Positions 28,301 through 44,741 of a stretch of DNA of 46,243 nt are shown one piece after another (the stretch's first letter is position 1; every line of letters begins with the position of its first letter). The translations under genes were made by a program, and so were the position numbers. The notes below the pieces were generated by a model that searched no databases, had not been told where the DNA came from, and saw only the letters and a list, made by a program, of their open reading frames with translations. Source of the DNA: Granulicella sp. (GTDB lineage: Bacteria; Acidobacteriota; Terriglobia; Terriglobales; Acidobacteriaceae); NCBI GenBank assembly GCA_027335345.1, contig DAHWOF010000010.1, positions 1 to 46,243 on the forward strand. Reading direction: 5' to 3'.

Positions 28301-31300
28301 TTAGAAGAGAATGTGGACGCCCAGTTGTAGTTGGCGAGAGCTGTTCAACTGAGAGGTCACGTGGGAGAAGGCAGAGGACGTCGGATTCAGGTTCGCGCCG
28401 CCGAACTGCGGGTGGTTGAGAATGTTGAAGGCATCGATTCGAGGCTGGATCACAAGCCGCCCCAGAGCGAAGTTTTTCAGCAAGGACATATCCAGGTTGT
28501 TGGTGGGATCCGACCGCAGCAGGAACTGCGGGAAGGTGCGGAAGTTGGCGAAGTTCGGCTGATCGGGCCCCGTGTAGAAGTTGGCCGTGTTGAAGGTGTC
28601 GCCAAGATAGTTGTGAGGATTGTTGTTGAAGTCGTGGTAGTTGCCGGTGTAGTACACGTTGCCCCACTGGAGCGGCGTGCCGGAGAGATACTCATAGATG
28701 GTGGAGATGCTGAAGCCGCCGATCAGCTCATCGGCAAGCTTTGAGTTATGGAAGAAGCGCTGTCCTCTGCCGAACGGAAGCATGTAAATTCCCGTCAGAG
28801 ACGCGTTGACCGGAAAGTCCGAGGTCGTCTCTTCATAAGAAAGCGGCCCACCGGGATTGAGCTGCACCGTATTACCCAGATTGCGGGAGTAGATGTAGTT
28901 GAACTCGAACTGGAGTCCATGGGACATGTTCTTACGCACCCTTCCCATGATTGAGTTGAAGTTGTTTCCTACCGCCGGAATCGAGTCTTCCGAAACGCTG
29001 GTGTAATCCGGATAGGTGTTCATCAGGGAGATGGCCGCCAAATTATGCGAGGTGTTGAGTGCGGAGGTAGTGGCCGGCCCGATATTCATCGTGTGGTAGA
29101 AGGGATTGGGTACGGATGCGAACAGCTCATCCTCTACGCCCACATCCAACAGAGGCGATCTGCTGAGATAGGGTAGATAACCGGCGGCGCTCACGTTGTT
29201 GTTATAGCTGTTATGAACCTGGTGCGCTCCCTCAAAGGTCACCTCCACCAGCCACGTGCTCGAGATCTGCTTCTGGATGTCAAGCTCATAGTGCTCCGAG
29301 TAAGGCACTTTCACGTGCGCGAGATAGGTGACGCTGCTTCCGAGCTGGGTGTTGATCCCGTACTCCGATCCATAAGGCTGAACAATGGGATTCGTAGCCG
29401 TCGGAAATGGATCGGAGAGCGTGGTGGCCGGGGTGAGGTCGTCATCATAGCTCCCCACAAAGCCGGTTTGTTGAGAGAAGCCGTACTGCGGCCCCCAGTT
29501 GCTGGGGTAATCCGTGAAGGGATTTACATAGACAGCAAAGCCTCCGCGAATGGCCAGAGTGCCATGGCCGAAGCCCGGCGAGTACGCAAAGCCGATGCGA
29601 GGGCTGATATAGACGGGAGGAAGAGAGTAAGCCGAACGGTTTGACCCGCTGGCGAAGATCTCATTTCCGGTCGAAAGGAAGTCGGCTACCGGAACTTCCG
29701 CAATGGGAGATTGCGCGTAGTTGGCTTCGGCGGCAGTGGTGGAGAAGTTAGGAGCCGTCGGATCAAAGTTCACCCACATGCGGTTGTTGCTCTCAACGTC
29801 CGGCGTCTCATGATCGATTCGAAGGCCGTCGCTGAATGTGAAGTTGCGCGAGACTCTCCAGTCATCCTGAGCAAAGAAGGCGCTGTACCAACTATCGTAC
29901 TGGAACTTGGTGGCGACGTTGTAGGCTCCGGAGCTTGGCAGGCCGAGCTCAAACAAGGCGAAGGCGCCGCCGAACAACTGGTTGGCGCCCGGAGTGGTGG
30001 TGGTGCAGGTCTCGCATCCTGGACCGGAGGTGACGAAGGACTCCGCCCCGGCGTTGAAGCTGTAAGAGCCGTCGGCTGCTCCCGGATTCACCGTGGATTC
30101 CTTATACGACCGGATATCTGCTCCGGCCTTGAAGGTGTGGTTGCCCCACACTTTGGTGAGCACCTCGTACAACTGAATCGTGTCGAAGTCTTCCGTCGAT
30201 CCCGGCGTGCCGCTCAGCGTCTGGATGTTGGACGCATCGCTGAAGCTCATCTGGGGAAGCGCATAGAGCACGGAGTTGGATGCGATATACGAAGGCATGC
30301 CGGTAACAGTCGGATTGATTCCTTGACTGGTCGGTTCTGAATCCGTCGCGTATCGGCTGAAGCCAAGCCGGGACTCAAGGGTGAACGATGGAGAGAACGT
30401 GTGAACATCGTCGATCTGGCCGCCCCAAAGGATGGTGTCCTGAGTAAATCCGGTCAGAGAGTTGTTGAAGGTCTGTTGCGATGTGGAAGTGTAGTTGCTC
30501 CGATGAGCTTCAAACCTCATCTTGTTGGAGGTTGTGATGTTCCAGTCCAGGGTGCCTTCATTCGAACTGTAGTTGTTAGTGGTCGGATCGCTGGAGAAGA
30601 AGTTGTTTTCGCCGTCTGCTTCGGTGGAGGCTCCGGAAAAGTTCGGTAAAGGCATCTTGTTCAGGTAATACTGCGCGATGGGATTGATGGTGAGCGGGTT
30701 GCCGCTGGCGTCGGTTGCGGTGGAGGTGCAGTAGGAGCTGGTGACCAGGCAGTTATTGGGAATGGGGGAACGGCTGACCTCACCGGTAGGCGTAAGGACC
30801 GCGGTAAATGGATTGAAGAGCTGGTTCTTCGGGCTGATATCCAGCAGCGCACCGAAGTCGCCAGCCCGCTCAGCCGCTGTCGGCACGCTCTCAATTACCG
30901 TATGCGGCTCTTTCCCGAAATAGCCTTCATAGGCGTAGAAGAAGAAGAGCTTGTTTCGGCCATTGAACACATGGGGAATCAGGACTGGGCCGCCGATCGT
31001 CCCACCAACTTGATTGAAGTGCACCGAAACCTGCTGGGTTCCCGCCGGCTGAAAGAAGGGATTCGCCGTAAGAGGGCGGGAACCGGCGTAGTACTCCGAA
31101 GCCGTACCGTGGAATTGGTTGGTGCCGCCCTTGGTGGTGATGTTCACGAAACCTCCGACGGTATCGCCCATCGCCGCATTGGCGGAGAAGTCGTCCACGC
31201 GAACCGCATCCACAGAGTCCAACTCAGGGCTGTAACCAGCGGTGCGGCTGCCATCTTCCATATTGGGAACGCCGTTCATCAGCAGCTCATTGGAGGATGA

Positions 31301-31978
31301 GTTTCCGCCGCCCAGGGAGAAGTCATCGGCAACCGAGTTATCGAACGGCGTGGTCTGCGACTGAGAGTGCTTGCCCTTGGCCACCGCGCCATACTCCAGA
31401 TGGGCAAAGCCCAACGGCGCACGACCGTTGCTGGGAAGGTCTTCCGCTTCCTCGGCGGTCAGCGTCTCCCCAACGGTCGCATTGGCGATGTTGATCAAGG
31501 GCGTATTGCCGCTAACGACCACCGACTGGGTGGCGACGCCAATCTCCAGGGGCACGTTGATGGTGAGAACCTGCTCGGTCTTCAGGATCAGACCGGTGTG
31601 CTCATACTTCCGGAATCCCGGCGCCTCCACGGTGATCGAGTAGACTCCGGAGAGAAGATGCGGCACGTCATACACGCCGGCTGAGTTGCTGACGCTGTAA
31701 GACGTGGCTCCGGTCTGGGTGTCCGTGATCGTAATCTTCGCCCCAGGGATCACCGCACCGGAGGGGTCCGTGACTCGGCCCGTCAGCGTGCCTCGGGTGA
31801 TCTGCGCCGAGGCTGCGGTTCCGGCCAGCAGTATGAAGACGAACAGGACGAGGAGAGTAGGGTGGGATGAGTTACGGCGGGATGCATCAGCACTCCCGGC
31901 CGGGGAGAATCGCCCGTGCCGTCCGCCGCGCACACTGGACCCGTGGGAGACTTGCGCTTGCGTGTGAATGACTTTCAT
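28301..31978 (-). CDS. Oar-like TonB-dependent outer-membrane receptor with carboxypeptidase-regulatory-like domain
   Basis: 1225 residues from the ATG at 31978; AGAGGA lies upstream at suitable distance, better than the ATG 21 nt earlier. After a long basic head comes a signal peptide (LLVLFVFILLAGTAASAQ). A carboxypeptidase-regulatory-like domain follows (TLTGRVTDPSGAVIPGAKIT, GVYDVPHLLSGVYSITVEAP-GF). Then a plug (LPSNGRAPLG, NELLMNGVPNMEDG, FVNITTKGGTNQFHGT) and a long beta-barrel ending VHILF with the terminal Phe typical of outer-membrane proteins. Such Acidobacteriota receptors are thought to import oligosaccharides or export proteins; the ligand cannot be read. The pectin genes upstream suggest a plant glycan. 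A strong terminator ends its transcript. Confidence 0.88.
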   Translation of the reverse strand: MKVIHTQAQVSHGSSVRGGRHGRFSPAGSADASRRNSSHPTLLVLFVFILLAGTAASAQITRGTLTGRVTDPSGAVIPGAKITITDTQTGATSYSVSNSAGVYDVPHLLSGVYSITVEAPGFRKYEHTGLILKTEQVLTINVPLEIGVATQSVVVSGNTPLINIANATVGETLTAEEAEDLPSNGRAPLGFAHLEYGAVAKGKHSQSQTTPFDNSVADDFSLGGGNSSSNELLMNGVPNMEDGSRTAGYSPELDSVDAVRVDDFSANAAMGDTVGGFVNITTKGGTNQFHGTASEYYAGSRPLTANPFFQPAGTQQVSVHFNQVGGTIGGPVLIPHVFNGRNKLFFFYAYEGYFGKEPHTVIESVPTAAERAGDFGALLDISPKNQLFNPFTAVLTPTGEVSRSPIPNNCLVTSSYCTSTATDASGNPLTINPIAQYYLNKMPLPNFSGASTEADGENNFFSSDPTTNNYSSNEGTLDWNITTSNKMRFEAHRSNYTSTSQQTFNNSLTGFTQDTILWGGQIDDVHTFSPSFTLESRLGFSRYATDSEPTSQGINPTVTGMPSYIASNSVLYALPQMSFSDASNIQTLSGTPGSTEDFDTIQLYEVLTKVWGNHTFKAGADIRSYKESTVNPGAADGSYSFNAGAESFVTSGPGCETCTTTTPGANQLFGGAFALFELGLPSSGAYNVATKFQYDSWYSAFFAQDDWRVSRNFTFSDGLRIDHETPDVESNNRMWVNFDPTAPNFSTTAAEANYAQSPIAEVPVADFLSTGNEIFASGSNRSAYSLPPVYISPRIGFAYSPGFGHGTLAIRGGFAVYVNPFTDYPSNWGPQYGFSQQTGFVGSYDDDLTPATTLSDPFPTATNPIVQPYGSEYGINTQLGSSVTYLAHVKVPYSEHYELDIQKQISSTWLVEVTFEGAHQVHNSYNNNVSAAGYLPYLSRSPLLDVGVEDELFASVPNPFYHTMNIGPATTSALNTSHNLAAISLMNTYPDYTSVSEDSIPAVGNNFNSIMGRVRKNMSHGLQFEFNYIYSRNLGNTVQLNPGGPLSYEETTSDFPVNASLTGIYMLPFGRGQRFFHNSKLADELIGGFSISTIYEYLSGTPLQWGNVYYTGNYHDFNNNPHNYLGDTFNTANFYTGPDQPNFANFRTFPQFLLRSDPTNNLDMSLLKNFALGRLVIQPRIDAFNILNHPQFGGANLNPTSSAFSHVTSQLNSSRQLQLGVHILF

Positions 31979-31999
31979 CAGATGTTCCTCTCGTTGCAT

Positions 32000-33031: not shown

Positions 33032-33979
33032 TTATGCCTTGCGCGCCGGTCTGGACGCCCGTCCGGAAACCGGACCGGACGCTGGATGGGCCATTGGACT
33101 GGAAGCTGGGCCGGACGCCTCCAAGGCAGCGGCCGCCAGGATGCAGCTGGCGATCGCGGAGGCCGACTCCAGCACAGCTTCCCTGATCTCTTCTTCTCTC
33201 TGCGGCGTCATCCGGATCAACGGGGTTGAGACGCTCAGCGCCGCCATCACGCGCTGGTCTTTGGGACGGATAGCGGCCCCGATGCAGCAGCCGCCCAGGA
33301 TGCTCTCCTCGCGATCGTAACCGACTCCGGTTCTGCGAATCTCTTCAAACTCGGCGAAGATGGCGTTGCGATCCACCATCGTCTTCTCCGTGCGCCGCGA
33401 GATTCCATAGATCTCCAGGATCTGGTCGGCGTCGCGACGCTCCTGAAAGGCGGTGATGGCCTTGCCCATGGCGCTGCAATGGGGCGGAAGCACACGTCCC
33501 ACACGGTTCATGATCCGGATCTCGTGAAAGGTCTCCACCGAGTCGATCACGTGGATGCGGTCGCCATACAGATAGGCAAGGCTGACGGTCTCATTGAAGC
33601 GGTACGCCAGGCGCTCGATCTCCGGCCGCGCCAGCTCGCGCAGCCGGTTGGCCCCATCCACCAGCCAGCCAAAGATCAGCTTGGGCGCCAACTGATAGGT
33701 TCCGTCCACATGCTGCTCCAGATACCCGTGCCGTTCCAGCGTCAGCAACACCCGGAAGACCGTGGACTCCGGCAACCTGGTGCGCCGGCTGATCTCCTTG
33801 AGTCCGAGCGGCATCCTGCCGTCAAAGCAGTTCAGGAGATCCAGACTGCGGCCCAAAGAGCGAAGATAATACTGCTCATTGGCCAATGGATCCTTCCCAG
33901 ACTCTATCGCCCATTTGGGAATTCGACGGCGTATCTTCGGAGTCGCCTGTGGGGCGGAGTGGGGAGCGGATTTGGGCAT
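33032..33979 (-). CDS. IclR-family transcriptional regulator
   Basis: 315 residues from the ATG at 33979 (the longer frame would use TTG). The N-terminal winged helix (about 40-105) reads SLDLLNCFDGRMPLGLKEIS, RRTRLPESTVFRVLLTLERH, GYLE. The IclR effector domain follows (SLAYLYGDRIHVIDSVE, LPPHCSAMGKAITAF, GVGYDREESILGGCCIGAAI). The Cys/His pattern is that of regulators binding small acids. The C-terminal 30 residues are a Pro/Ser/Ala-rich extension not part of the family. It lies 3' of the GH42-GH105-PL10 genes on the same strand, separated by 401 nt. IclR proteins such as KdgR control pectin catabolism, so control of this locus is likely but inferred. Confidence 0.88.
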   Translation of the reverse strand: MPKSAPHSAPQATPKIRRRIPKWAIESGKDPLANEQYYLRSLGRSLDLLNCFDGRMPLGLKEISRRTRLPESTVFRVLLTLERHGYLEQHVDGTYQLAPKLIFGWLVDGANRLRELARPEIERLAYRFNETVSLAYLYGDRIHVIDSVETFHEIRIMNRVGRVLPPHCSAMGKAITAFQERRDADQILEIYGISRRTEKTMVDRNAIFAEFEEIRRTGVGYDREESILGGCCIGAAIRPKDQRVMAALSVSTPLIRMTPQREEEIREAVLESASAIASCILAAAALEASGPASSPMAHPASGPVSGRASRPARKA

Positions 33980-34012
33980 TTGGAACTCTTTTGAGCACTC
34001 CTCAGCAAGCAA

Positions 34013-34380: not shown

Positions 34381-36798
34381 TTAAGGCCCGGAAGGCTGGG
34401 CAAGCCGGAGCAACAGGGCCACGCCTTGAGCCGGAAGCTCCACGGTCGTGCCCCGCCGGGGCTCGCCTTGCCGGGGCTCGCCTTGCCGGGATGCGGCATG
34501 CTCGGATGCAGCTCCGCTCGGCGCATCTTCCAGCCGCGTTCCTCTTTCCTCGGCGGCGCTGCTCGCCGAGTCATCGGCGAACAGACGCTTGAAGTGGCCC
34601 GGGAGAAACACTCGGCTCGGTTGATGGCTGTGATTGATAAGAATATAGACGCTTGCGCCGGCTGGGTTACCCGGCTGCGAGCGGACGCAGAGTTCCACGT
34701 TGGGCGGCAGCTCCACAGACCCAGCTTCCACGCCGGACCGCCACGCGGCACGGGTAAGAATGGCCTTGAGCAGCGCCGGATCCGGAAGCGTGCCGAGATA
34801 AGATATGCTTCCCTTCCCCAGCCGGCGCGTCAGCATGGCTGGCTGACCGTCCAGCCAGCCGCCCTGCGTCTTGCCATAACGAAGTTCGACCCGAGTATCC
34901 GGCGCGGTTGCCACCAGGTCTTCCGCCCAGATGTCGGCTGTGCCGGAAGACGGCTTGGCCGCCGGTGAAGGAGAGTGCTGCAAGGGTGAAAGTGCGAGCG
35001 GGTGCGTGGCCGCCAGGGGGACGCTCTGCCCCTGCTCCAGCGCGTAGTATTGCACGACGTTTCCGCCCAGAGCCTGCGCCAGAGGGCCGGGCTGCCGCTC
35101 CGGCTGGAGCGCATCGTAGGCGTCCTTCATCCCGGATCGAGGGCCGAGCAGAAGATGACCTCCCTGGCGCACATAGGCCATCAGCTTATTCGCCAGATCC
35201 TGGGGAATCACATTCAGCGACGGAGCCACCAACAGCTTGTAGCGCTCCAGCGGCGCAACGTTAGGGTCCACGATGTCCACCGCTTCTCCGCGCGTCTCCG
35301 CGAGCTGCTCCAGCGGCCGGTAGAAGCGCAGCAGCACCTTCTGCTGATCGTAGAGCCTGCTGTGCCTCTGGAAGTCGATGGCCCAGCGCGAATCGTAGTC
35401 CGTCAGCAGCGCCATCTCGGCGTGCGGAGCCGTGCCGCTCAGCGCCGGGCTGGCCTGTTGAAACTCGGAGCCGGTCTGCTCAATCTCCGCATAGATGGGA
35501 TTCGGCTTACCATCAGCGCCCAGCACCGCCCCGTGATACTGCTCCTGGCCGTTGAGCGCGGACCGCCACTGCCAGTACAGAACGGCATCCGCCCCGTGGC
35601 CGACGGTCTGCCAGGCCAGAGCCCGGGTCTCGCCGCGATCCAGCGCATTGTTGATCGGGGCCCAGTTCACTGAGCCCGGTTCGGTCTCCATCACCCAGAA
35701 GTTCGCCCGCTTCCAGCCGCGGGCAAAGTCGTTCAGCATGGCGTTGCGGTAAGCGTGCAAATGGCCCTCACCCACGTAATCATCCCAGCTCGCCAGGTTG
35801 AGATCCTCCGTGAGCCTGTAGTGATCCCAGTTGGCGGACCATCCCAGGCCCCCGATGTTGGTGGTGATGAACTGCGAGGGCGGAATATAAGTGCGCAGCA
35901 CCGTAATCTGCGCGCCTTGGAAGCTGCGCCAGGTTGCCGTGACAAAGTGCTTGTACTCCAGCAGCAGTCCGGGGTTTCCGTAGTGGTTCTGCATGGGGAT
36001 CTCATCCCAGCGGTCGTAGGTCTGCGACCAGTAGGCGGTCGCCCAGCGCCGGTTCAGGTTGGCCAGGGTCTTGTATCGCTTCTTCAGGAACTGTTGAAAC
36101 TGCGCGCGGGTGGCCGGATCGAAGGACTCGTCGGTGTCTTCGTTGCCAATCTGCCAGCCGATCACATTGGGGTTATGGCCAAAGCGCTGCGCAAGCTGCG
36201 CCACCATCAGCGTGCAAAGCTGACGGTAGCGTGGGCTGGCGTAGTTGAACTGACGCCGGTCGCCATGCTCGCGGGTACGGCCGTCGGCATCGATGCCCAG
36301 CGTCTCCGGATACTTGCGGGTGAGCCAGGCCGGCGGAGCGTCCGTGGGCGTTCCAATCACCACGGCGATGTGGTGTCTGCCTGCGAGGTCGATGGCCCGC
36401 TCCAGCCAGTTGAGATGGTAGTCGCCTTCGCTGGGCTCGAGCGCCGACCAGGCATACTCCCCCACCCGGACAACATCGATGTGAGCCGCTTGCATCAGGG
36501 TGAGATCCGTGTTCCAGCGCGACTCCGGCCACTGCTCCGGATACCAGGCAACACCCAGCAGCGGCGCATGCGGAGTGCTGTAAGGCCGGACCGCCTGCCC
36601 GCGGAGCGCCGTTGCGCCCCCGGAGGGCCGGCAACAGGCGAGCTGCCCTGCCGGCTCCCCCGCGGATTTGCCCAGAGGCTGCCTCGAAGACTGAGGCGCC
36701 GGTGCAGCTATGGCGCCAGCCCGCGGGGCCCAGGCCCAGGCCAGAGCGACAGCCGCGACGACCAGAGCTGGGATGGTGCAGTGCTTGCAGCAAGACAC
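34381..36798 (-). CDS. Secreted GH42 beta-galactosidase
   Basis: 805 residues. GTG start at 36798 with GAGG 7 nt upstream, then a signal peptide (IPALVVAAVALAWAWAPRAGA). The GH42 TIM barrel runs from LLGVAWYPEQWPESRW (about 84). The acid/base Glu sits in VIGWQIGNED and the nucleophile Glu in FWVMETEPGSVNWAP. The trimerisation domain (LLTDYDSRWAIDFQ, YKLLVAPSLNVI, GGHLLLGPRSGMKD) and a C-terminal beta domain follow. The C-terminal domain has a low-complexity insertion with a doubled RQGEP (see the 15-bp repeat at 34456). Unlike most GH42 enzymes it is predicted to be exported. It would take galactose from galactan side chains of rhamnogalacturonan. It follows GH105 on the same strand after a 276-nt gap that shows no gene. 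Confidence 0.88.
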   Translation of the reverse strand: MSCCKHCTIPALVVAAVALAWAWAPRAGAIAAPAPQSSRQPLGKSAGEPAGQLACCRPSGGATALRGQAVRPYSTPHAPLLGVAWYPEQWPESRWNTDLTLMQAAHIDVVRVGEYAWSALEPSEGDYHLNWLERAIDLAGRHHIAVVIGTPTDAPPAWLTRKYPETLGIDADGRTREHGDRRQFNYASPRYRQLCTLMVAQLAQRFGHNPNVIGWQIGNEDTDESFDPATRAQFQQFLKKRYKTLANLNRRWATAYWSQTYDRWDEIPMQNHYGNPGLLLEYKHFVTATWRSFQGAQITVLRTYIPPSQFITTNIGGLGWSANWDHYRLTEDLNLASWDDYVGEGHLHAYRNAMLNDFARGWKRANFWVMETEPGSVNWAPINNALDRGETRALAWQTVGHGADAVLYWQWRSALNGQEQYHGAVLGADGKPNPIYAEIEQTGSEFQQASPALSGTAPHAEMALLTDYDSRWAIDFQRHSRLYDQQKVLLRFYRPLEQLAETRGEAVDIVDPNVAPLERYKLLVAPSLNVIPQDLANKLMAYVRQGGHLLLGPRSGMKDAYDALQPERQPGPLAQALGGNVVQYYALEQGQSVPLAATHPLALSPLQHSPSPAAKPSSGTADIWAEDLVATAPDTRVELRYGKTQGGWLDGQPAMLTRRLGKGSISYLGTLPDPALLKAILTRAAWRSGVEAGSVELPPNVELCVRSQPGNPAGASVYILINHSHQPSRVFLPGHFKRLFADDSASSAAEERGTRLEDAPSGAASEHAASRQGEPRQGEPRRGTTVELPAQGVALLLRLAQPSGP
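34456..34490. repeat. 15-bp in-frame tandem duplication inside the GH42 gene
   Basis: CCGGGGCTCGCCTTG occurs twice without change (34456-34470 and 34471-34485), then a partial third copy (CCGGG). It adds five residues (QGEPR) to a surface-like loop near the C-terminus. It is probably replication slippage and keeps the frame. Confidence 0.75.
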
Positions 36799-37074: not shown

Positions 37075-38361
37075 TTACCGGGTAGCAGCGGTTCCATCGC
37101 CTGACAATCTTGCCAGCTCCGCGCTGGCCAGAAGAAAGGCTCCAATGCCCTTGGGATCGTTCGTGACCACCTTCTCGCTGAGGTAATACCCGTAGCTTCC
37201 GTCACGATAGGGAGTGCCCCCCAGCCCTGCGGCCTTGACCGTACCCGTCAGGTTCATCACGCCATCGGCGCCTGCCTTCACAAAGCGGCGGACGATCCCC
37301 TGATAGCCACGCTCCGCCGCCGCCAGATCCTGCCGGGGCAGATAACCGAGGCGCACCCCCTTCGCAAGCGCATAGACGAACATGCAGCTTGCGGATGACT
37401 CCGGATAATTGCCCGGGGCGCCGGCCTTGTCCATCACCTGATACCACAGGCCGGAGCCGGCGCTCTGGTAGCGAATCACCGCGGCAGCCTCCCGGCGCAG
37501 AATCTTCAGCAGCGTCTCTCGTCCAGCGTCGTTGGCCGGATAGTACGGAAGGGTGTCCGCCAGCGCCATCAGATACCAACCCATGCCCCGGGCCCAGATC
37601 TGAGATGACGTTCCGGTCCTGGGATTGGCCCAGCGCTGCTGCCTGGACTCGTCCCAACCATGGAAGAGGAGGCCGGTTGCGGGGTCGTAGGCGTGCTGCC
37701 GCATGAGCACGAACTGGTGCGTGATATCGGCAAAGGCCCGCGGATGATGAAACATGGAGGCGTATTGCGCATAGAAGGGCTCCGCCATGTACAGGCCGTC
37801 AAGCCACATCTGGTTGGGATACCGCTGCTTGTGCCAGAAACCTCCGGAGCGCGTCCGGGGTTGGCGCTTGAGCTGGCGATAGAGTACGGCAGCCGCCGCA
37901 GCGTAACCAGGATCATGCGTGGTCCGGTACAGCAGCAACAGTTGCCGCCCGGGAAGAATGTTATCGAGCTCCTTATCGTCTTCCTTATAGGTGGAGATCG
38001 TTCCATTCGGGCTCAGGAACGGATCCATCGAGTCGCGGATATAACGGTAATCCCTTGCATCCCCGCTCACGTTCCACGCCGCATCCATCCCCTCGAGCAG
38101 GACACCCAGCTCATAGTTCCATCTCCAGGGAGCGCCCGGAGTAACGAAGCGGCCATCGGGCCAGCGGGTTATGGTTGCCTTCGAAAATGCCAGCATTAGG
38201 GATCTCGGATCTGTCGCCAGACCTGAATGCGTCGCAGACGGTGCAGGGTCCGGAGCAGCCTCCTTCTGGGCGCCTCGCTGCTGCGTCATGGCGGGACGGG
38301 CTGCGCCACCAAGAAGGCTGCCAAGAAGCAGAACTACCGTGGGTTGAAAACCAAGCGTCAC
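37075..38361 (-). CDS. GH105 unsaturated rhamnogalacturonyl/galacturonyl hydrolase
   Basis: 428 residues when started at the GTG at 38361. This overlaps the pectate-lyase stop as GTGA and gives a signal peptide (TLGFQPTVVLLLGSLLGGAARPA). The longer frame would overlap 76 nt. The (alpha/alpha)6 fold of GH88/GH105 is shown by WRWNYELGVLLEGM, PNQMWLDGLYMAEPFYAQYA (with the catalytic Asp), TGLLFHGWDES, WARGMGWYLMALADTLPYYP, LWYQVMDKAGAPGNYPESSA and DGSYGYYLSEKVVTNDPKGI. The enzyme removes the 4,5-unsaturated uronic acid left by polysaccharide lyases, and is translationally coupled to a pectate lyase. It is exported, where many relatives are cytoplasmic. Confidence 0.88.
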   Translation of the reverse strand: MTLGFQPTVVLLLGSLLGGAARPAMTQQRGAQKEAAPDPAPSATHSGLATDPRSLMLAFSKATITRWPDGRFVTPGAPWRWNYELGVLLEGMDAAWNVSGDARDYRYIRDSMDPFLSPNGTISTYKEDDKELDNILPGRQLLLLYRTTHDPGYAAAAAVLYRQLKRQPRTRSGGFWHKQRYPNQMWLDGLYMAEPFYAQYASMFHHPRAFADITHQFVLMRQHAYDPATGLLFHGWDESRQQRWANPRTGTSSQIWARGMGWYLMALADTLPYYPANDAGRETLLKILRREAAAVIRYQSAGSGLWYQVMDKAGAPGNYPESSASCMFVYALAKGVRLGYLPRQDLAAAERGYQGIVRRFVKAGADGVMNLTGTVKAAGLGGTPYRDGSYGYYLSEKVVTNDPKGIGAFLLASAELARLSGDGTAATR

Positions 38362-39668
38362 GGCTGGCTGGCGTGCTCCTTGCTCCACTGCGCATAGCGG
38401 TCGAGCGCTCTCTGCGAGCTTGAACTGTACCACGCATAGCCGTTTCTCCGCTCCAGAGATAGCTCAGCCACGTTGTCGTGGATCGTCTTGTCCCGGTCTA
38501 CGAAGATGGGCCGGTCGCTCCCAATCTGATAGAAGCGCGCCCACAACGGGCCGGCTCCAGGGGTGGGAACCAGCTCTCTACCCTCGGGCGTCCGCTTCCA
38601 CTGCTCCCCGTAGATCGCCGTCTTTTTGAACCAGGCGGCAGCGGCGCGGATCGACTGCTGCTCCGCACGGTCGGGATGGTGAAGGTCATTCATCAACAGA
38701 AGCAAAACATCCGCGCTCTCACTGGCGCTCGCCGCAGGCGGCTCGAAGTTCCTGCCTGACTCCGGCTTCAGAGTGAGGGGATCATCCTGCTGGGGCCACA
38801 CCGTCAACACGCCGCCGGCGCGAATCTGCGTGGCCAGGATGCACTCGATGCCGCGCGCAAAGCTCGCCGCGGCGTGGGCGCGCGTTGCCGGTGGCACAAA
38901 CGCAAAGTCGCCCTGGCCCTCTGCTGTGTCATGCATCACCTCCATGGTCTCGGTCACAGCATCATCGTTGTAGGTGATGGCGTCATGGTAGCCGCCCTCC
39001 AATGGCCATACCTGCGGCCAGCCGCCGTTCGGCTCCTGCGCAGCGAGGAGATATTGAATGCCATGCAGGAAGGACGTTTGATAGGCATGGCTGCGCTGCG
39101 CTCCAACCGCGGTGATGACCCTGGCGAGGAACTGTAGCTCCGTCGTCGTGGCGTCGTTGTCGATGGTCCCGATGTAGTTCCAGTCCGGCTCCAGCGGCGT
39201 GTCATAGTCGCCGGGAGCAAGAAAGCGTGACAGATTATTGGGCGCGAACCTCTCCCCCGGCTGCCGGACCTCGCCGGTCATATCCATATTCTTTCCCCAT
39301 CCGCCCGCAGGAGTCTGAAAAGAGACGATCACCGCGGCGATATGCTGTGCTTCAGCACCCGCATACCAGGAAGGATCCTGGTTCAGGGGAATGCTCCGCG
39401 CCGAAAAGCTGTGGGGCGGCTCCAGTGGGGTCTTGCGTCCGCTGCGTTTCAACTCCGCCTGGAAGAAATCCTTGTCCGCCTGCCGCAATCTCTCGGAGCG
39501 CGCGAGATAGGCAAGCCACGGCCCCTGTTTCCCTGGCGGGAGACGCTGTATATTCTTCCGCGTCACCGACTCCGCGGGAGGATTCCTGCCGATGATGCTC
39601 GCGCCCAGGGGGAGCACCGCAATCAGGACCGTCACAACCGCGGCCAGGGCGCTTCGCTTCTTTGTCAA
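38358..39668 (-). CDS. Secreted PL10 pectate lyase
   Basis: 436 residues. The start is TTG at 39668 with AGGAG 7 nt upstream, then a signal peptide (SALAAVVTVLIAVLPLGAS). The PL10 (alpha/alpha) barrel motifs are clear: FQTPAGGWGKNMDMTG, GTIDNDATTTELQFLARV, QEPNGGWPQVWPLEGGYHDA, ITYNDDAVTETMEV and LWARFYQIGSDRPIFVDRD. These carry the acidic Ca-binding residues and the catalytic Arg region of the family. It cleaves polygalacturonan by beta-elimination outside the cytoplasm, producing the unsaturated ends that GH105 then removes. It is the second gene of the pectin locus, 330 nt after the TonB receptor, with a large hairpin in between. Confidence 0.9.
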   Translation of the reverse strand: MTKKRSALAAVVTVLIAVLPLGASIIGRNPPAESVTRKNIQRLPPGKQGPWLAYLARSERLRQADKDFFQAELKRSGRKTPLEPPHSFSARSIPLNQDPSWYAGAEAQHIAAVIVSFQTPAGGWGKNMDMTGEVRQPGERFAPNNLSRFLAPGDYDTPLEPDWNYIGTIDNDATTTELQFLARVITAVGAQRSHAYQTSFLHGIQYLLAAQEPNGGWPQVWPLEGGYHDAITYNDDAVTETMEVMHDTAEGQGDFAFVPPATRAHAAASFARGIECILATQIRAGGVLTVWPQQDDPLTLKPESGRNFEPPAASASESADVLLLLMNDLHHPDRAEQQSIRAAAAWFKKTAIYGEQWKRTPEGRELVPTPGAGPLWARFYQIGSDRPIFVDRDKTIHDNVAELSLERRNGYAWYSSSSQRALDRYAQWSKEHASQP

Positions 39669-39998: not shown

Positions 39999-42900
39999 TT
40001 AGAAGTTGATGTGACCAGCAAACTGGAACTGACGGGGGCTGTTCGCCTGAGCCGTGACGGTTCCAAAGTTTGGGTTTCCTACCTGAGTGTTGATCGAGGA
40101 ACCACCCACCGTGTTGGTGCCGGGGCTGCCGAACCACACATGATTCATCAGGTTGAAGGCGCTGGCGGAGAAGACGAACTTCACCCGCCCGTTCCTCCAA
40201 ACGCTGAAGGTGCGGCTGAGCGTGGCGTCGATGTCGTAGTTGCTGGGACCACGCAAGCCATCTGGCGCTGTGCGGGTCACGTTGCCGATCAAATAGCCTC
40301 CGTTTTGATACCCGAAGTTGGCGGAGGTGGTGGTGAGGAACGCAGCCGGGTTGATATATTGCCGGGTGCCCAGATTCTCCGCCGTTGCGCCCTTGCCCCA
40401 CTTTCCATAAGGCATCAGGTTGCCGGCAAAGTTCGGGTTGTAGCTCGGTTCGCACGTGCCGGCTGAGCCCGTGCACTGCGTGCCGGTAAGAGCAAGCGGA
40501 AGGCCGTCAAAGTAGGTGTAGAGCCCGTCCAGCTCCCAGTTCTCGATAAGGGCATTCACGATCGGATTGCTGCCACCGATCTTGCCTTTGCCGAAGGGAA
40601 GATAATACGTGCCCATGGCGGTGATGTCCTGGGGCAGATCGATGACGCTGCGCGACCGGTCGATCACGTCAATCGGGTAAGCCTTGTTGGGCTCGTTGGC
40701 CACCAGGCCGGCCGGAATGGCATATCCGGCGCGGAAGGTTCCATCATCGTCCACCGTCTTGCTGTAGGTGTAGTTGATCAGGAAGTTGAACCCATGGCTC
40801 TCGCGCCCGGTGATGGAGATCTGTAAGGCGTTGTAATGGGAGTTTCCAACGTTGCTGTACATATCGTTGATGCCGCTGTACTGCGGGAACGGCTTCAGCA
40901 TCTGGCCAATGGTTCCGGGAGCCGCCTGGGGAAAGACTGCGTACGGATACTTGACATTGGGATTGACCGCCGCCGCAGCGGCCACGTTGGACGGAGTGGA
41001 TGGCTCCGAGGTGAGCCCCTGCAGGAAAAGGTACTCAACATTCATCTGGTTGTTGTAGATACCACGCGCATTACCGGCATAGAGAAAGTGCGCTTCATTG
41101 CCGACATAGGAGACCGTCGCCGTGATGCTCTGCGAGAGCAGCCTCTGGAAGCCGACAGACCACGATGGGTACTCCGGCTGCCGGGCTCCCAGGATCGGGT
41201 CCAGATAACCCAGCGTCTGGGAGAGCTTCTCCGTCTGCGTGACATTGGTTGCGTAGTACGTTCCATAGAGAGGGTCGATGATGGGAGGGGCTGTGGCGCT
41301 GAATCCCGGCCCACCGAATGCCGAGTTGGAGAGAGTGGCGTTATAACCGCTGCTGTTCAAATAGAACGGCGGGAGCGAGAGGCCAGGGCTGGGGGGATTA
41401 GGCGAATCCGAGAAGCCATTTTGCAGACCTGACTGGGAGAGCCCATTGTCCGTGAGACCGCCCGGGACCATGCCGTAGTAGATTCCAAACGAGCTGCGCA
41501 GCACTGTCAGGCTGTTCAGGGCGTAGGCCAAACCGACCCTTGGGCCAACATCCTTGTAGTAGGTATGCACGGGGGTTCTGCAGTCGCAGCCATCCACTCC
41601 ATAACCCGCGAATTGCATGATGCCGGGAGTTCCGGTCGCGGTATTGATGGCGTTGGGGTTCAGGTACTCGAAGTGATTGTGCTTCTCCTCCAGAGGCGAC
41701 TCGTACTGCCAGCGGAGGCCAAGATTCAATGTGAGCTTGGGGGTGACGCGGTAGTTGTCATTGATATAGATCGCGGCCTCGTGGTTGTCGGTGAACGTCT
41801 CCAGATAGCCAGCGCCATACTGCGTGTAATTGCCCTGGTTCACCGCGCCAACCAGATAGCTGGCCAGCGGAAGTCCGGTGTTTGGATTCAGAGTGGTGCC
41901 ACTGCTGAACTGACCCGTGCTCGAGGAGCTGAAGTTGAGGGAGAGTGGCGTGCTGTCGCCGATCGCCGGAAGTTCATGCAGGCTGAACCACTGGATCTGG
42001 GTTCCGATCGTGATGGAGTGCAGCTTGTGAACCCACTGCACGTTGTCTTTGAAGGACCAGGTGTCTTCGCTGCTGGCGGAGTAGGTGGCGCCGCCGGCCC
42101 ACTGCGCCGGCGTGTTGTTGCCGCTCCATTTGACCGTGGGGAACGACGCCGACGCCTGTCCGACAGGGATGTTGGTAATGCCTGAGCTCGTCGCCGTCCA
42201 GGCCGGAGTTCCCAGAGCCAGGTTGAAGGAGTCGTCGTGGTACTCGGCGAAGCCCAGGTTGACCTGGTTGAGGAGATTCGGCGAAAACACATAGTTGTGC
42301 GTGAGCATCATGACGGCGGTTCGTGGGTTGTAGGCCTTGGAGGCTCGATACGGGAACGGACCGTCATCCGTTGTCTGGCTGGAGTCGTTCACCGTCGACT
42401 GGCGTCCAAAGTTCGCCATCAGGCTGACATACTGCTTCTGCGAGATATCCCAATCCATGCGGTTGGCCGTGGCCCAGTTGGAGAGCCCAAAGGGGAACGT
42501 GCCGATGTAGTTGTCCGTGCTCTTGCTGTTTGCGTAGTTGATCCCCTGCCAGAACTGCTGCATGTACTTGGCCTGCGGAGAGATCTCGTTCTGCGGGATG
42601 ACGTTGGCTGTAATAGGACCGCTGCCGCATCCGCCCGTGGGCGTGTAGCTGGCTCCGAAGAACTGCGAGCGCGTGGGAGCCGTGGTGCTGGAGGTCTGCG
42701 TGGTGGGATCGTAGATGGGATAGAGGCCTCCCGCATCCGGAGCCGAGAAGTCTCCGCACAGCTCGGCCGGAGTGGGAATCGTCTCATAGTTCGGTGGAGT
42801 GACCGAGGAGTACCGGTAGTTCGTATAGGAGCCGAACAGAAACAGCTTGTTCTTCAGGATCGGAAAACCGGCGTTCATTCCGTTCTCCCACTGATGCTCG

Positions 42901-43832
42901 GGCGTCTTCATGATGGCGCCGGTGATCCGGTTCCGAACAGGGATGAAGCCTGATGCGTCGAACGCCGTGTTGCGAACGATGGTATACAGCGTTCCGTGCA
43001 GGTCATTGGTGCCGGACTTGATGGTAAAGTTTTCCGCCGCAAGACCGCCGTACTCCGCGGAGAAGCCTGTGGTGTCCACCTGGAACTGATTGACGGACTC
43101 GGCCGGGATCGAGGTCCACACAAAACGCGGATCACCCATGGCCGTGGCCGTGTCAAAGGGAACGCCGTCAATGTTCATCTCGGTCGCGCTGGGATTGCCG
43201 TTGACGATCATGGGCTCATCCGTCGCATTGTTGCCGGAGATCTCGGGATCGACACCGACAACGAGAAAGGCAACGTCGGTGGCGCGCCGCTGGGAGCTTT
43301 GACCAAACTCGCCCATCTCCAGCGGGGTTTTGGAGTAGGTCTGATTATTGATCGCTCCGCCCAGGGTTGCGTTAGTGGTATCCAAGGGCGGCGGCGCGGT
43401 GGTGACGGTCACCGTCGAACTCGTGGCGCCCACCGTCAGCTTGAGGTTAAGGCCCAGCACCTGCAATCCGTTCAGGGTCACGTTGTCGCGAACCAGCTTC
43501 TCAAACCCGGGCGCCTCGACCGTGATCTGGTACTTGGCCACGGGCAGGGAGGAGAGCGCATAAAAACCGCTAGAATCGGTGGGCATCACCGTCTTCACCC
43601 CGGTGAGCGTATTCAATGCCGTCACCTTGGCGTGCGGAATCACCGCGCCGGTAGCATCGGTGACCGTGCCCTGGATGGATCCGGTTCCGCCAATCTGCGC
43701 CTGCAGACAAGCTGGAACCAGTAGGAACACGGCCAGGAACAGCAGCCATCCGCCGCGAGAGCCGGATTGCCGGCCACGCGAAAGCTTGAAGAAAGGCGGC
43801 GCCCATTGCGACCACCTGTTTGCTATTTGCAT
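39999..43832 (-). CDS. Oar-like TonB-dependent outer-membrane receptor heading the pectin locus
   Basis: 1277 residues. ATG at 43832 with GGAGG 6 nt upstream. Signal peptide WLLFLAVFLLVPACLQAQ, then a carboxypeptidase-regulatory-like domain (SIQGTVTDATGAVIPHAKVT, GFYALSSLPVAKYQITVEAP). The plug follows (MIVNGNPSATEMNIDGVPF, AENFTIKSGTNDLHGTLY), then a long beta-barrel closing FQFAGHINF with the terminal Phe. It has the same architecture as the receptor at 28301-31978, but the plug and barrel sequences differ clearly, so the two are old paralogues. It is the first gene of the series PL10, GH105, GH42, which argues for a pectic or rhamnogalacturonan oligosaccharide as ligand. It has repeated sites in its upstream region. 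Confidence 0.88.
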   Translation of the reverse strand: MQIANRWSQWAPPFFKLSRGRQSGSRGGWLLFLAVFLLVPACLQAQIGGTGSIQGTVTDATGAVIPHAKVTALNTLTGVKTVMPTDSSGFYALSSLPVAKYQITVEAPGFEKLVRDNVTLNGLQVLGLNLKLTVGATSSTVTVTTAPPPLDTTNATLGGAINNQTYSKTPLEMGEFGQSSQRRATDVAFLVVGVDPEISGNNATDEPMIVNGNPSATEMNIDGVPFDTATAMGDPRFVWTSIPAESVNQFQVDTTGFSAEYGGLAAENFTIKSGTNDLHGTLYTIVRNTAFDASGFIPVRNRITGAIMKTPEHQWENGMNAGFPILKNKLFLFGSYTNYRYSSVTPPNYETIPTPAELCGDFSAPDAGGLYPIYDPTTQTSSTTAPTRSQFFGASYTPTGGCGSGPITANVIPQNEISPQAKYMQQFWQGINYANSKSTDNYIGTFPFGLSNWATANRMDWDISQKQYVSLMANFGRQSTVNDSSQTTDDGPFPYRASKAYNPRTAVMMLTHNYVFSPNLLNQVNLGFAEYHDDSFNLALGTPAWTATSSGITNIPVGQASASFPTVKWSGNNTPAQWAGGATYSASSEDTWSFKDNVQWVHKLHSITIGTQIQWFSLHELPAIGDSTPLSLNFSSSSTGQFSSGTTLNPNTGLPLASYLVGAVNQGNYTQYGAGYLETFTDNHEAAIYINDNYRVTPKLTLNLGLRWQYESPLEEKHNHFEYLNPNAINTATGTPGIMQFAGYGVDGCDCRTPVHTYYKDVGPRVGLAYALNSLTVLRSSFGIYYGMVPGGLTDNGLSQSGLQNGFSDSPNPPSPGLSLPPFYLNSSGYNATLSNSAFGGPGFSATAPPIIDPLYGTYYATNVTQTEKLSQTLGYLDPILGARQPEYPSWSVGFQRLLSQSITATVSYVGNEAHFLYAGNARGIYNNQMNVEYLFLQGLTSEPSTPSNVAAAAAVNPNVKYPYAVFPQAAPGTIGQMLKPFPQYSGINDMYSNVGNSHYNALQISITGRESHGFNFLINYTYSKTVDDDGTFRAGYAIPAGLVANEPNKAYPIDVIDRSRSVIDLPQDITAMGTYYLPFGKGKIGGSNPIVNALIENWELDGLYTYFDGLPLALTGTQCTGSAGTCEPSYNPNFAGNLMPYGKWGKGATAENLGTRQYINPAAFLTTTSANFGYQNGGYLIGNVTRTAPDGLRGPSNYDIDATLSRTFSVWRNGRVKFVFSASAFNLMNHVWFGSPGTNTVGGSSINTQVGNPNFGTVTAQANSPRQFQFAGHINF

Positions 43833-43875
43833 TTCGGTCCTCCAAAAGGGAAGTTACGTTCTTGCGCGGCTCATT

Positions 43876-43913
43876 AGAGCCAGTGGGATCACAAGGAGCC
43901 AGTGGAATCACAA
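43876..43913. repeat. Two 19-bp tandem repeats in the receptor leader
   Basis: AGAGCCAGTGGGATCACAA (43876-43894) is followed without gap by GGAGCCAGTGGAATCACAA (43895-43913), two differences in 19. They lie 44-81 bp upstream of the receptor ATG, the place for activator or repressor half-sites. Two helical turns (19-21 bp) of spacing suits a protein binding direct repeats. Confidence 0.65.
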
Positions 43914-44059
43914 GCGAAAAACAACGGGAAAAGGCGATGGCAGCTCCGGAAAGGGGTCGGGTGGGAACCCAGCGGCCGCCGAGCCGCTAGCTGTGGACAG
44001 ACCACTTGGCACGACGAGGCTATGGGAGCAAAAGCTGAAAAAATTGAAAAAGTCTCGGA

Positions 44060-44152
44060 TGGGACTCGCCTCTTCAGATGATTTGGCAACGTTGCCTAAG
44101 GATGAATGGAATCCTAGAACAACGAAGATTCGATCGTCAACCGAAAACCGCC
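44060..44152. repeat. First copy of a 139-bp-spaced duplication with a LacI-type operator
   Basis: Contains the palindrome GGCAACGTTGCC (44085-44096; 18-bp context TTTGGCAACGTTGCCTAA) and, further right, GAAGATTCGATCGTCAACC (44124-44142). Every element recurs 139 bp downstream without a gap. The palindrome with a central CG is the usual shape of LacI-family operators. It is about 260 bp upstream of the receptor start. Confidence 0.7.
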
Positions 44153-44198
44153 TTTTCGATGACAGCCGAACCTGGAGAGCAAATGACACAAGCTTGAA

Positions 44199-44291
44199 GC
44201 GGTTGCGCCTTTTCAAGCATTTTGGCAACGTTGCCGAATAATCTCAAAAATGTTAGAGCAAGGAAGATTCGATCGTCAACCAAAAAAAATC
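44199..44291. repeat. Second copy of the 139-bp-spaced duplication with a LacI-type operator
   Basis: GGCAACGTTGCC at 44224-44235 (context TTTGGCAACGTTGCCGAA) and GAAGATTCGATCGTCAACC at 44263-44281. Between the two elements the copies have diverged (about half of the bases), while both elements are identical in the two copies, which suggests selection. The rest of the 43833-44741 spacer holds no gene I can support. Confidence 0.7.
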
Positions 44292-44741
44292 TTCCGCGGG
44301 CGGATCAACCTGCCGGCAAAGTGAGATTCCCCGGGTTCGGGCTCGTCGGCGTGGCTCGACCTCTGGCTTCCTACAGGTCGAACCACGTATCTCAAGATGA
44401 AAAGGAGCTGGATTCTCCACGCTGAAGCGTTGGGCGGAGGCGAAAGCTCCGACCAGGTCACTCCACAGGCGCAGTACGGCGCTCCATGCTCGCTGGTTCC
44501 TCTTCGCCCGGCAGCAAAAGAGCCAGCTACAATCCCTGAGCGAGCCATGCCTCGGTTCCGGCGGACCCTCTCCGGCCCGGCGCTGCCCGGGCTCAAAACC
44601 CCGAGGCGCCCTGTCTTGCCGAGTGCGCTTTTCGATTATCCTTAATTAGCAGGAGCTGAAACGGCGAACCATCGTGCCGCGATGCAAGCTCGATGGCTCT
44701 CATCCAAACCCTTCGCCCCAACCCCCAGTGAGGCAGACCCT

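Follow-up and report, generated by a model that had tools for sequence, protein, structure and literature searches.

As predicted from the sequence, a promoter-operator unit very probably stands duplicated in tandem upstream of an outer-membrane receptor gene in Granulicella sp., where it drives the receptor under the control of a LacI-family repressor whose own gene lies on another contig. The unit probably also drives the pectin genes that lie behind the receptor, in a presumed operon. The window, that is, the whole stretch of DNA analysed here, is 46,243 nucleotides long and corresponds to contig C212 of a genome (G000) of 3.65 Mb that is 84.9% complete.

The receptor gene (39999-43832, minus strand, 1277 aa) is the first gene downstream of both units. 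Its product combines an N-terminal CarboxypepD_reg domain (PF13620, 3.7e-19) with a C-terminal OMP_b-brl_4 beta barrel (PF25183, 3.8e-150). The protein gives no Plug match at 0.001 and, in NCBIfam, only TonB_dep_CU, far below the cut-off; its counterpart in G254, a genome of another genus, gives a Plug match of 0.00039, below the cut-off. OMP_b-brl_4-type receptors form a large family, with 25-45 matches per genome in the genus, and a second such gene (28301-31999, minus strand, 1232 aa) is found in the window, with no exact operator nearby. Downstream of the receptor and on the same strand come genes for a pectate lyase (Pec_lyase, TIGR02474; 38358-39668), which is the next gene, a GH88 family protein (37075-38433), a GH42 beta-galactosidase family protein (34381-36798) and an IclR-family regulator (33032-34012; PF01614 and PF09339, with NCBIfam matches below cut-off that include BhcR and KdgR). 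The receptor probably imports pectin fragments, and the IclR-family protein inside this pectin locus is a possible second regulator sharing control of these genes.

A preliminary description of the region had pointed to two identical palindromes and to a second repeated element at the same spacing. Both are real. The exact palindrome GGCAACGTTGCC occurs at 44085-44096 and at 44224-44235, with a spacing of exactly 139 bp, and the 19-nt element GAAGATTCGATCGTCAACC is doubled at 44124-44142 and 44263-44281, again 139 bp apart. Over 44041-44170, 80 of 130 bases match at shift 139, as compared with 29-45 of 130 at the 19 other shifts tested. Sliding identity at this shift delimits a stretch of high similarity of about 110 bp, with a proximal repeat unit at 44040-44150 and a distal one at 44179-44289 (approximate ends, both on the minus strand). 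Twelve exact 12-mers recur at one spacing, the maximum in 1000 dinucleotide shuffles of the intergenic region being 6; a chance origin of the repeat was rejected on the basis of the shuffles and of reversed controls. Between the two units, identity is just 61% over about 130 columns, and 63% in the related genome G003, so the duplication does not look recent. Closer to the gene, the receptor leader carries another, 19-nt tandem duplication at 43877-43914 (GAGCCAGTGGGATCACAAG / GAGCCAGTGGAATCACAAG), about 45 nt before the ATG and present as a single copy in G003. A structured RNA leader was also considered and rejected, the sole Rfam match in the region (E 0.71) scoring 19.7 bits where the gathering score is 120.

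The second element had been described as having no known meaning, and this has to be corrected. In the direction of the receptor, on the minus strand, it is GGTTGACGATCGAATCTTC and holds TTGACG, the -35 hexamer of a predicted minus-strand promoter. In both copies the minus strand reads TTGACG, 18 nt, TAnnAT, 14 nt and GGCAACGTTGCC. A promoter scan of 43800-44700 returned four sigma70-like sites where 0.2 were expected; on the minus strand, TTGACG-18-TAACAT and TTGACG-18-TAGGAT account for two of these, and an operator follows each of them. With hexamers required to be 16-18 nt apart, both copies are predicted sigma70-type promoters with 9 of the 12 consensus bases and a spacer of 18 nt. The distal unit comprises the -35 hexamer at 44274-44279, within the 19-nt element, the -10 hexamer TAACAT at 44250-44255 and the operator at 44224-44235; in the proximal unit, the -35 hexamer lies at 44135-44140, likewise within its 19-nt element, the -10 hexamer TAGGAT at 44111-44116 and the operator at 44085-44096. 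What has been duplicated in tandem is thus, by prediction, the whole promoter-operator unit and not the operator alone. From the ATG of the ORF, the upstream distance is 252 nt for the proximal operator and 391 nt for the distal one; in G004 and G008, two relatives with a single unit, the operator lies about as far from the receptor as the proximal one does here. Assuming a transcription start some 7 nt beyond the -10 hexamer, each operator would cover approximately positions +8 to +19 of the predicted transcript. The assignment of the palindrome as a LacI-type operator holds up well at the level of prediction: it is an even palindrome with a central CG, it lies before target genes, and it is tied to one regulator.

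The operator taken alone is a poor marker. In G000, the exact palindrome has 4 copies, 2 of them in the receptor region, and its reversed control none; with up to one mismatch the counts become 25 and 12, which makes near matches of little value by themselves. Of 41 genomes (G000 included), 24 have one or more exact copies of the 12-mer, and some also have control matches; the 12-mer by itself is not specific. By hand count over the genus genomes among these 41, 8 of the 10 exact copies in genomes that lack the LacI ortholog described below are located inside ORFs of at least 380 aa, as are 9 of the 24 copies in genomes that have it; 4 of these 9 lie within 100 nt of the first possible start of the ORF and may precede the true start. 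The complete unit, searched as TTGACN-N17/18-TANNAT-N9..17-GGCNACGTTGCC, gave 23 units in 11 of the 28 genus genomes (reversed control, 0 of 28). In a sample of 398 genomes of the family, which includes the 28, the pattern is present in 12 and its control in none; the one genome added by this sample is G254.

The preliminary description had also stated that the window holds no lacI-type gene and that the regulator acts in trans. Indeed, contig C212 has no PF00356 (LacI) match, and the 11 LacI-domain genes of G000 are all on other contigs. The candidate repressor is encoded on C101 (9950-11062, 370 aa), about 5 kb from a pectinesterase gene equipped with the unit. It consists of a LacI helix-turn-helix and a sugar-binding domain (PF00356, 1.1e-13; PF00532, 1.8e-18; PF13377, 2.2e-17, all above cut-off), its solved relatives being RbsR, CcpA, PurR and LacI; in NCBIfam, it reaches no model cut-off. 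A contig search gave four close relatives, three from records titled Acidobacteria bacterium and one from Granulicella sp., and one 24% match in Phycicoccus. C101 carries another of the four exact operators, 142 bp upstream of the pectinesterase gene and with its own TTGACG-18-TACCAT; the pectinesterase gene is followed by a tagaturonate epimerase gene.

Control in trans by this protein is favoured by the distribution of the unit. Counting the candidate itself, the LacI ortholog (64-91% identity) is present in 11 of the 28 genus genomes, nine of the orthologs having been typed as LacI family with Pfam. The unit is found in all 11 of these genomes and in none of the 17 others (Fisher p = 4.7e-8, a value that ignores relatedness and concerns one genus). 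By itself, the operator (TGGCNACGTTGCCA) is present in 14 of the 28, namely the same 11 and G012, G018 and G021, where it sits inside ORFs. LacI matches at E <= 1e-50 exist in 20 of the 28 genomes, with identities of at most 45% beyond the 11; the next best ones, in G042 and G018 (42-45%), come with no unit, and neither do those of G155, G163, G202 and G322, from other genera (37-46%). The LacI proteins of the unit-less genomes may be paralogs with other sites. Overall, distant homologs (32-46%) are found without the unit, except for that of G254, which is 46% identical and whose genome has a unit before a one-strand run of receptor, GH28, pectinesterase, lacI and GH88 genes.

Beyond the receptors, units or operators precede pectinesterase, GH28, tagaturonate epimerase or lacI genes. 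This company of pectin genes points to galacturonan breakdown and to an inducer derived from galacturonate. The -35 and -10 hexamers were scored, and not required, at sites picked by their operator, and the 22 receptor and pectinesterase/GH28-side sites all score 9 of 12. At the site beside lacI in G013, no -35/-10 was seen on the strand tried, and the unit pattern was found on the other strand. An operator also lies at the start of a GH28 gene in G000 (C115; L216 1502), with one mismatch, and in G003 (C135; L082 3073) and G008 (C69; L095 3039), where it is exact; these sites have no recognised -35/-10, and the gene is probably another member of the regulon. A further exact GGCAACGTTGCC stands beside an NAD-binding dehydrogenase gene in G000 (C64 5912-5923; L047) and in G003 (C285:27306; L083 9307-9318). 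In G000, the other neighbour of this site is a three-gene RND-type efflux set; no promoter unit was recognised there, and the neighbours typed include no pectin gene. G011, which is 67% complete and has no LacI ortholog, shows exact palindromes outside large ORFs (L099 2594 and L100 1026), one of which lies at 104 nt from an AcrB-type gene and in this resembles the C64 site of G000.

Homologs of the window receptor in the genus are 98% (G003), 86% (G004), 85% (G008), 51% (G001) and 43% (G014, C54) identical, and all five are preceded by TTGACG-18-TAnnAT and GGCNACGTTGCC, the last gap, from -10 to operator, being 14 nt in G003, G004, G001 and G014 and 17 nt in G008. In G005, G013, G020 and G022, the unit stands before a receptor locus beside their lacI gene; the receptors of G020 and G022 match that of the window at 30-31% identity, and that of G013 is split into two ORFs in the assembly, both of which were typed. 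Placement relied solely on position and length for the 330-aa ORFs of G004 and G008, for the truncated ORF of G003 on C75 and for the 1242-aa ORF of G005. The total amounts to 12 receptor units in 10 genus genomes. The double unit is seen only in G000 and in G003, its closest genome by receptor identity; the 8 others have a single unit. Relative to the point where the protein match begins, single units lie at -243 (G004), -251 (G008), -252 (G001) and -365 (G014), and the double ones at -264 (proximal) and -403 (distal) in G000 and at -250 and -389 in G003, these distances being rough, as the matches begin at different residues. They weakly suggest that the distal copy is the likely newcomer.

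That selection acts on both elements, as first proposed from their identity amid drifted DNA, is supported by the comparison of G000 with G003: none of the 44 unit positions differs, against 78 of 297 positions elsewhere (Fisher p 4e-6). The 44 positions are those of the -35 hexamer, of TA..AT in the -10 hexamer and of the operator in both units; the two middle bases of the -10 hexamer are excluded, one of which differs between the two genomes in the distal copy (TAACAT, TAAGAT). These figures bear on the idea of a neutral duplication without functional consequence, in which the second promoter would be idle. The double unit is confined to two closely related genomes, and single-unit relatives evidently manage, as this idea would have it; yet the copies have drifted to 61% and 63% identity while the -35 hexamer, TA..AT of the -10 hexamer and the operator stay unchanged in both copies and in both species. 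We consider an idle second promoter unlikely and prefer a functional duplication of the unit.

The operators of the units differ with the genes that they precede. In the 11 non-receptor units, the operator is always a perfect palindrome, with A as the fourth base in 11 of 11. Among the 12 receptor units, the fourth base is A in 5, which are the four duplicated units of G000 and G003 and the unit of G013; 7 of the 8 units other than the duplicated ones have the imperfect form GGC(T/C/G)ACGTTGCC, with T, C or G at the fourth base of the operator half nearer to the promoter (G001, G004, G005, G008, G014, G020 and G022). As the search pattern let only the fourth base vary, this asymmetry between receptor and non-receptor units is partly built in. 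Imperfect operators possibly confer weaker, leaky repression on the receptor. One may also imagine, with rather more doubt than confidence, that in one lineage the unit was duplicated and both operators were perfected, giving two tightly repressed starts with higher induced output and lower leak; this would be a regulatory gain through the copying of a promoter unit and not of a gene.

Since the identity within the window spans 19 nt and is thus longer than a -35 hexamer, the element could instead be the binding site of another regulator, such as the IclR-family protein whose gene lies in the pectin locus, and not a part of a promoter. Receptor units also keep the bases that follow TTGACG (A, then T or C), and the 14-mer core GATTCGATCGTCAA is in excess at up to 2 mismatches (36 genome matches, 34 of them outside the receptor region, against 5 in the reversed control). 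However, in the 11 receptor units counted (that of G008, with its last gap of 17 nt, does not align and was left out), only TTGACGA is invariant within the element, TTGAC being preset by the pattern, and the rest drifts. Moreover, the pectinesterase/GH28-side sites keep TTGAC 17-18 nt from TAnnAT although the bases after TTGACG differ. A new regulatory element was rejected as the main reading on the count of invariant bases, and we judge a second regulator's site at this position to be quite improbable, marginally more so than the idle promoter. With only TTGACGA invariant, the 19-nt identity is explained by the -35 hexamer of the predicted promoter and by bases shared by descent.

The pair of operators had been taken as a sign of DNA looping by a tetrameric LacI-family repressor. 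Two perfect operators do stand 139 bp apart, and the candidate has a C-terminal tail beyond its core domain in G000, G003, G004 and G008. In E. coli, LacI tetramerises and loops DNA by means of a C-terminal amphipathic helix, residues 339-360, according to the available text of PMC5983854. By contrast, the tail of the candidate is basic, rich in proline, glycine and serine, disordered-looking and, as judged by eye, free of leucine heptads; the six other orthologs of the alignment, which took in 10 of the 11 and left out G043, are 339 aa long and have no tail. GalR-type tetramers would still be conceivable, as GalR is described in the available text of PMC3877293 as tetramerising through a surface of its C-subdomain with no special helix. 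Yet paired operators are not kept across loci: the unit occurs twice in 2 and once in 8 of the 10 genus genomes that have it at a receptor. In addition, 139 bp make 13.24 turns at 10.5 bp per turn, which is out of phase, and the promoters were copied along with the operators, a feature that looping does not require. Looping by a lac-type tetramer is thus not supported, and we regard a loop as an unlikely explanation; with each operator just downstream of its own promoter, the pair is explained without it by the duplicated promoter-operator unit.

With this arrangement, the LacI protein of C101 would sit as a dimer on each operator and shut off the promoter belonging to that operator. The repressor would be released by a sugar of pectin origin, probably galacturonate or an intermediate related to it. 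With a second unit, the receptor would gain another start site and thereby a higher induced expression, and the proximal operator would also stand in the way of transcripts coming from the distal promoter. In the lac operon of E. coli, the operator O1 lies over the start of the transcript made from a sigma70 promoter and acts by steric block; the predicted placement of the operators at the transcript start is alike and suited to the same effect. The lac system has one promoter, three operators and a tetrameric repressor, whereas two promoters are predicted here, each with its own operator, and the candidate repressor lacks the tetramerisation helix.

The system may be viewed as a LacI-family pectin regulon, known in kind, to which a lineage-specific promoter duplication would have been added. 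Local galacturonate/glucuronate regulons under LacI-family regulators (ExuR, KdgR, UxaR and UxuR) figure in the available text of Ravcheev et al. (2014; PMC4052901). According to the same text, 1173 of the 1303 LacI regulators studied have an even palindrome with a central CG, and about 20% of operons are preceded by more than one site, with peaks of intersite distance at 13, 22 and 32 bp, the last two being read as cooperative binding. As far as that text goes, the present case has in common with these regulons a central-CG palindrome, a local sugar-acid regulon, a lacI gene near its targets and multiple sites. It departs from them by the distance of 139 bp and by the copying of the promoter, the likeness being one of site form and gene context. 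The word Acidobacteria is absent from the main text of PMC4052901, to which an acidobacterial regulon would now be added. A second parallel is SuxR-suxA of Xanthomonas campestris, in which a LacI/GalR repressor controls a TonB-dependent sucrose receptor (PMC1790865). Both cases associate a repressor of this family with a plant-carbohydrate locus and its outer-membrane receptor; SuxR represses in a substrate-dependent manner, as is predicted here. SuxR-suxA differs in that it concerns sucrose and not pectin, belongs to another phylum and, in the available text of that article, shows no duplicated unit. A literature search with most subscription papers outside its scope returned nothing on LacI control of pectin genes in Granulicella or on LacI sites at TonB-dependent receptors in Acidobacteria, and for the string GGCAACGTTGCC only an unrelated Giardia paper.

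For one acidobacterial outer-membrane receptor, these results put forward a regulator together with its operator and a class of substrate, and the footprint formed by the unit and its LacI protein could help to type other receptors. The duplicated unit is a small example of how copying a promoter together with its operator might raise induced output.
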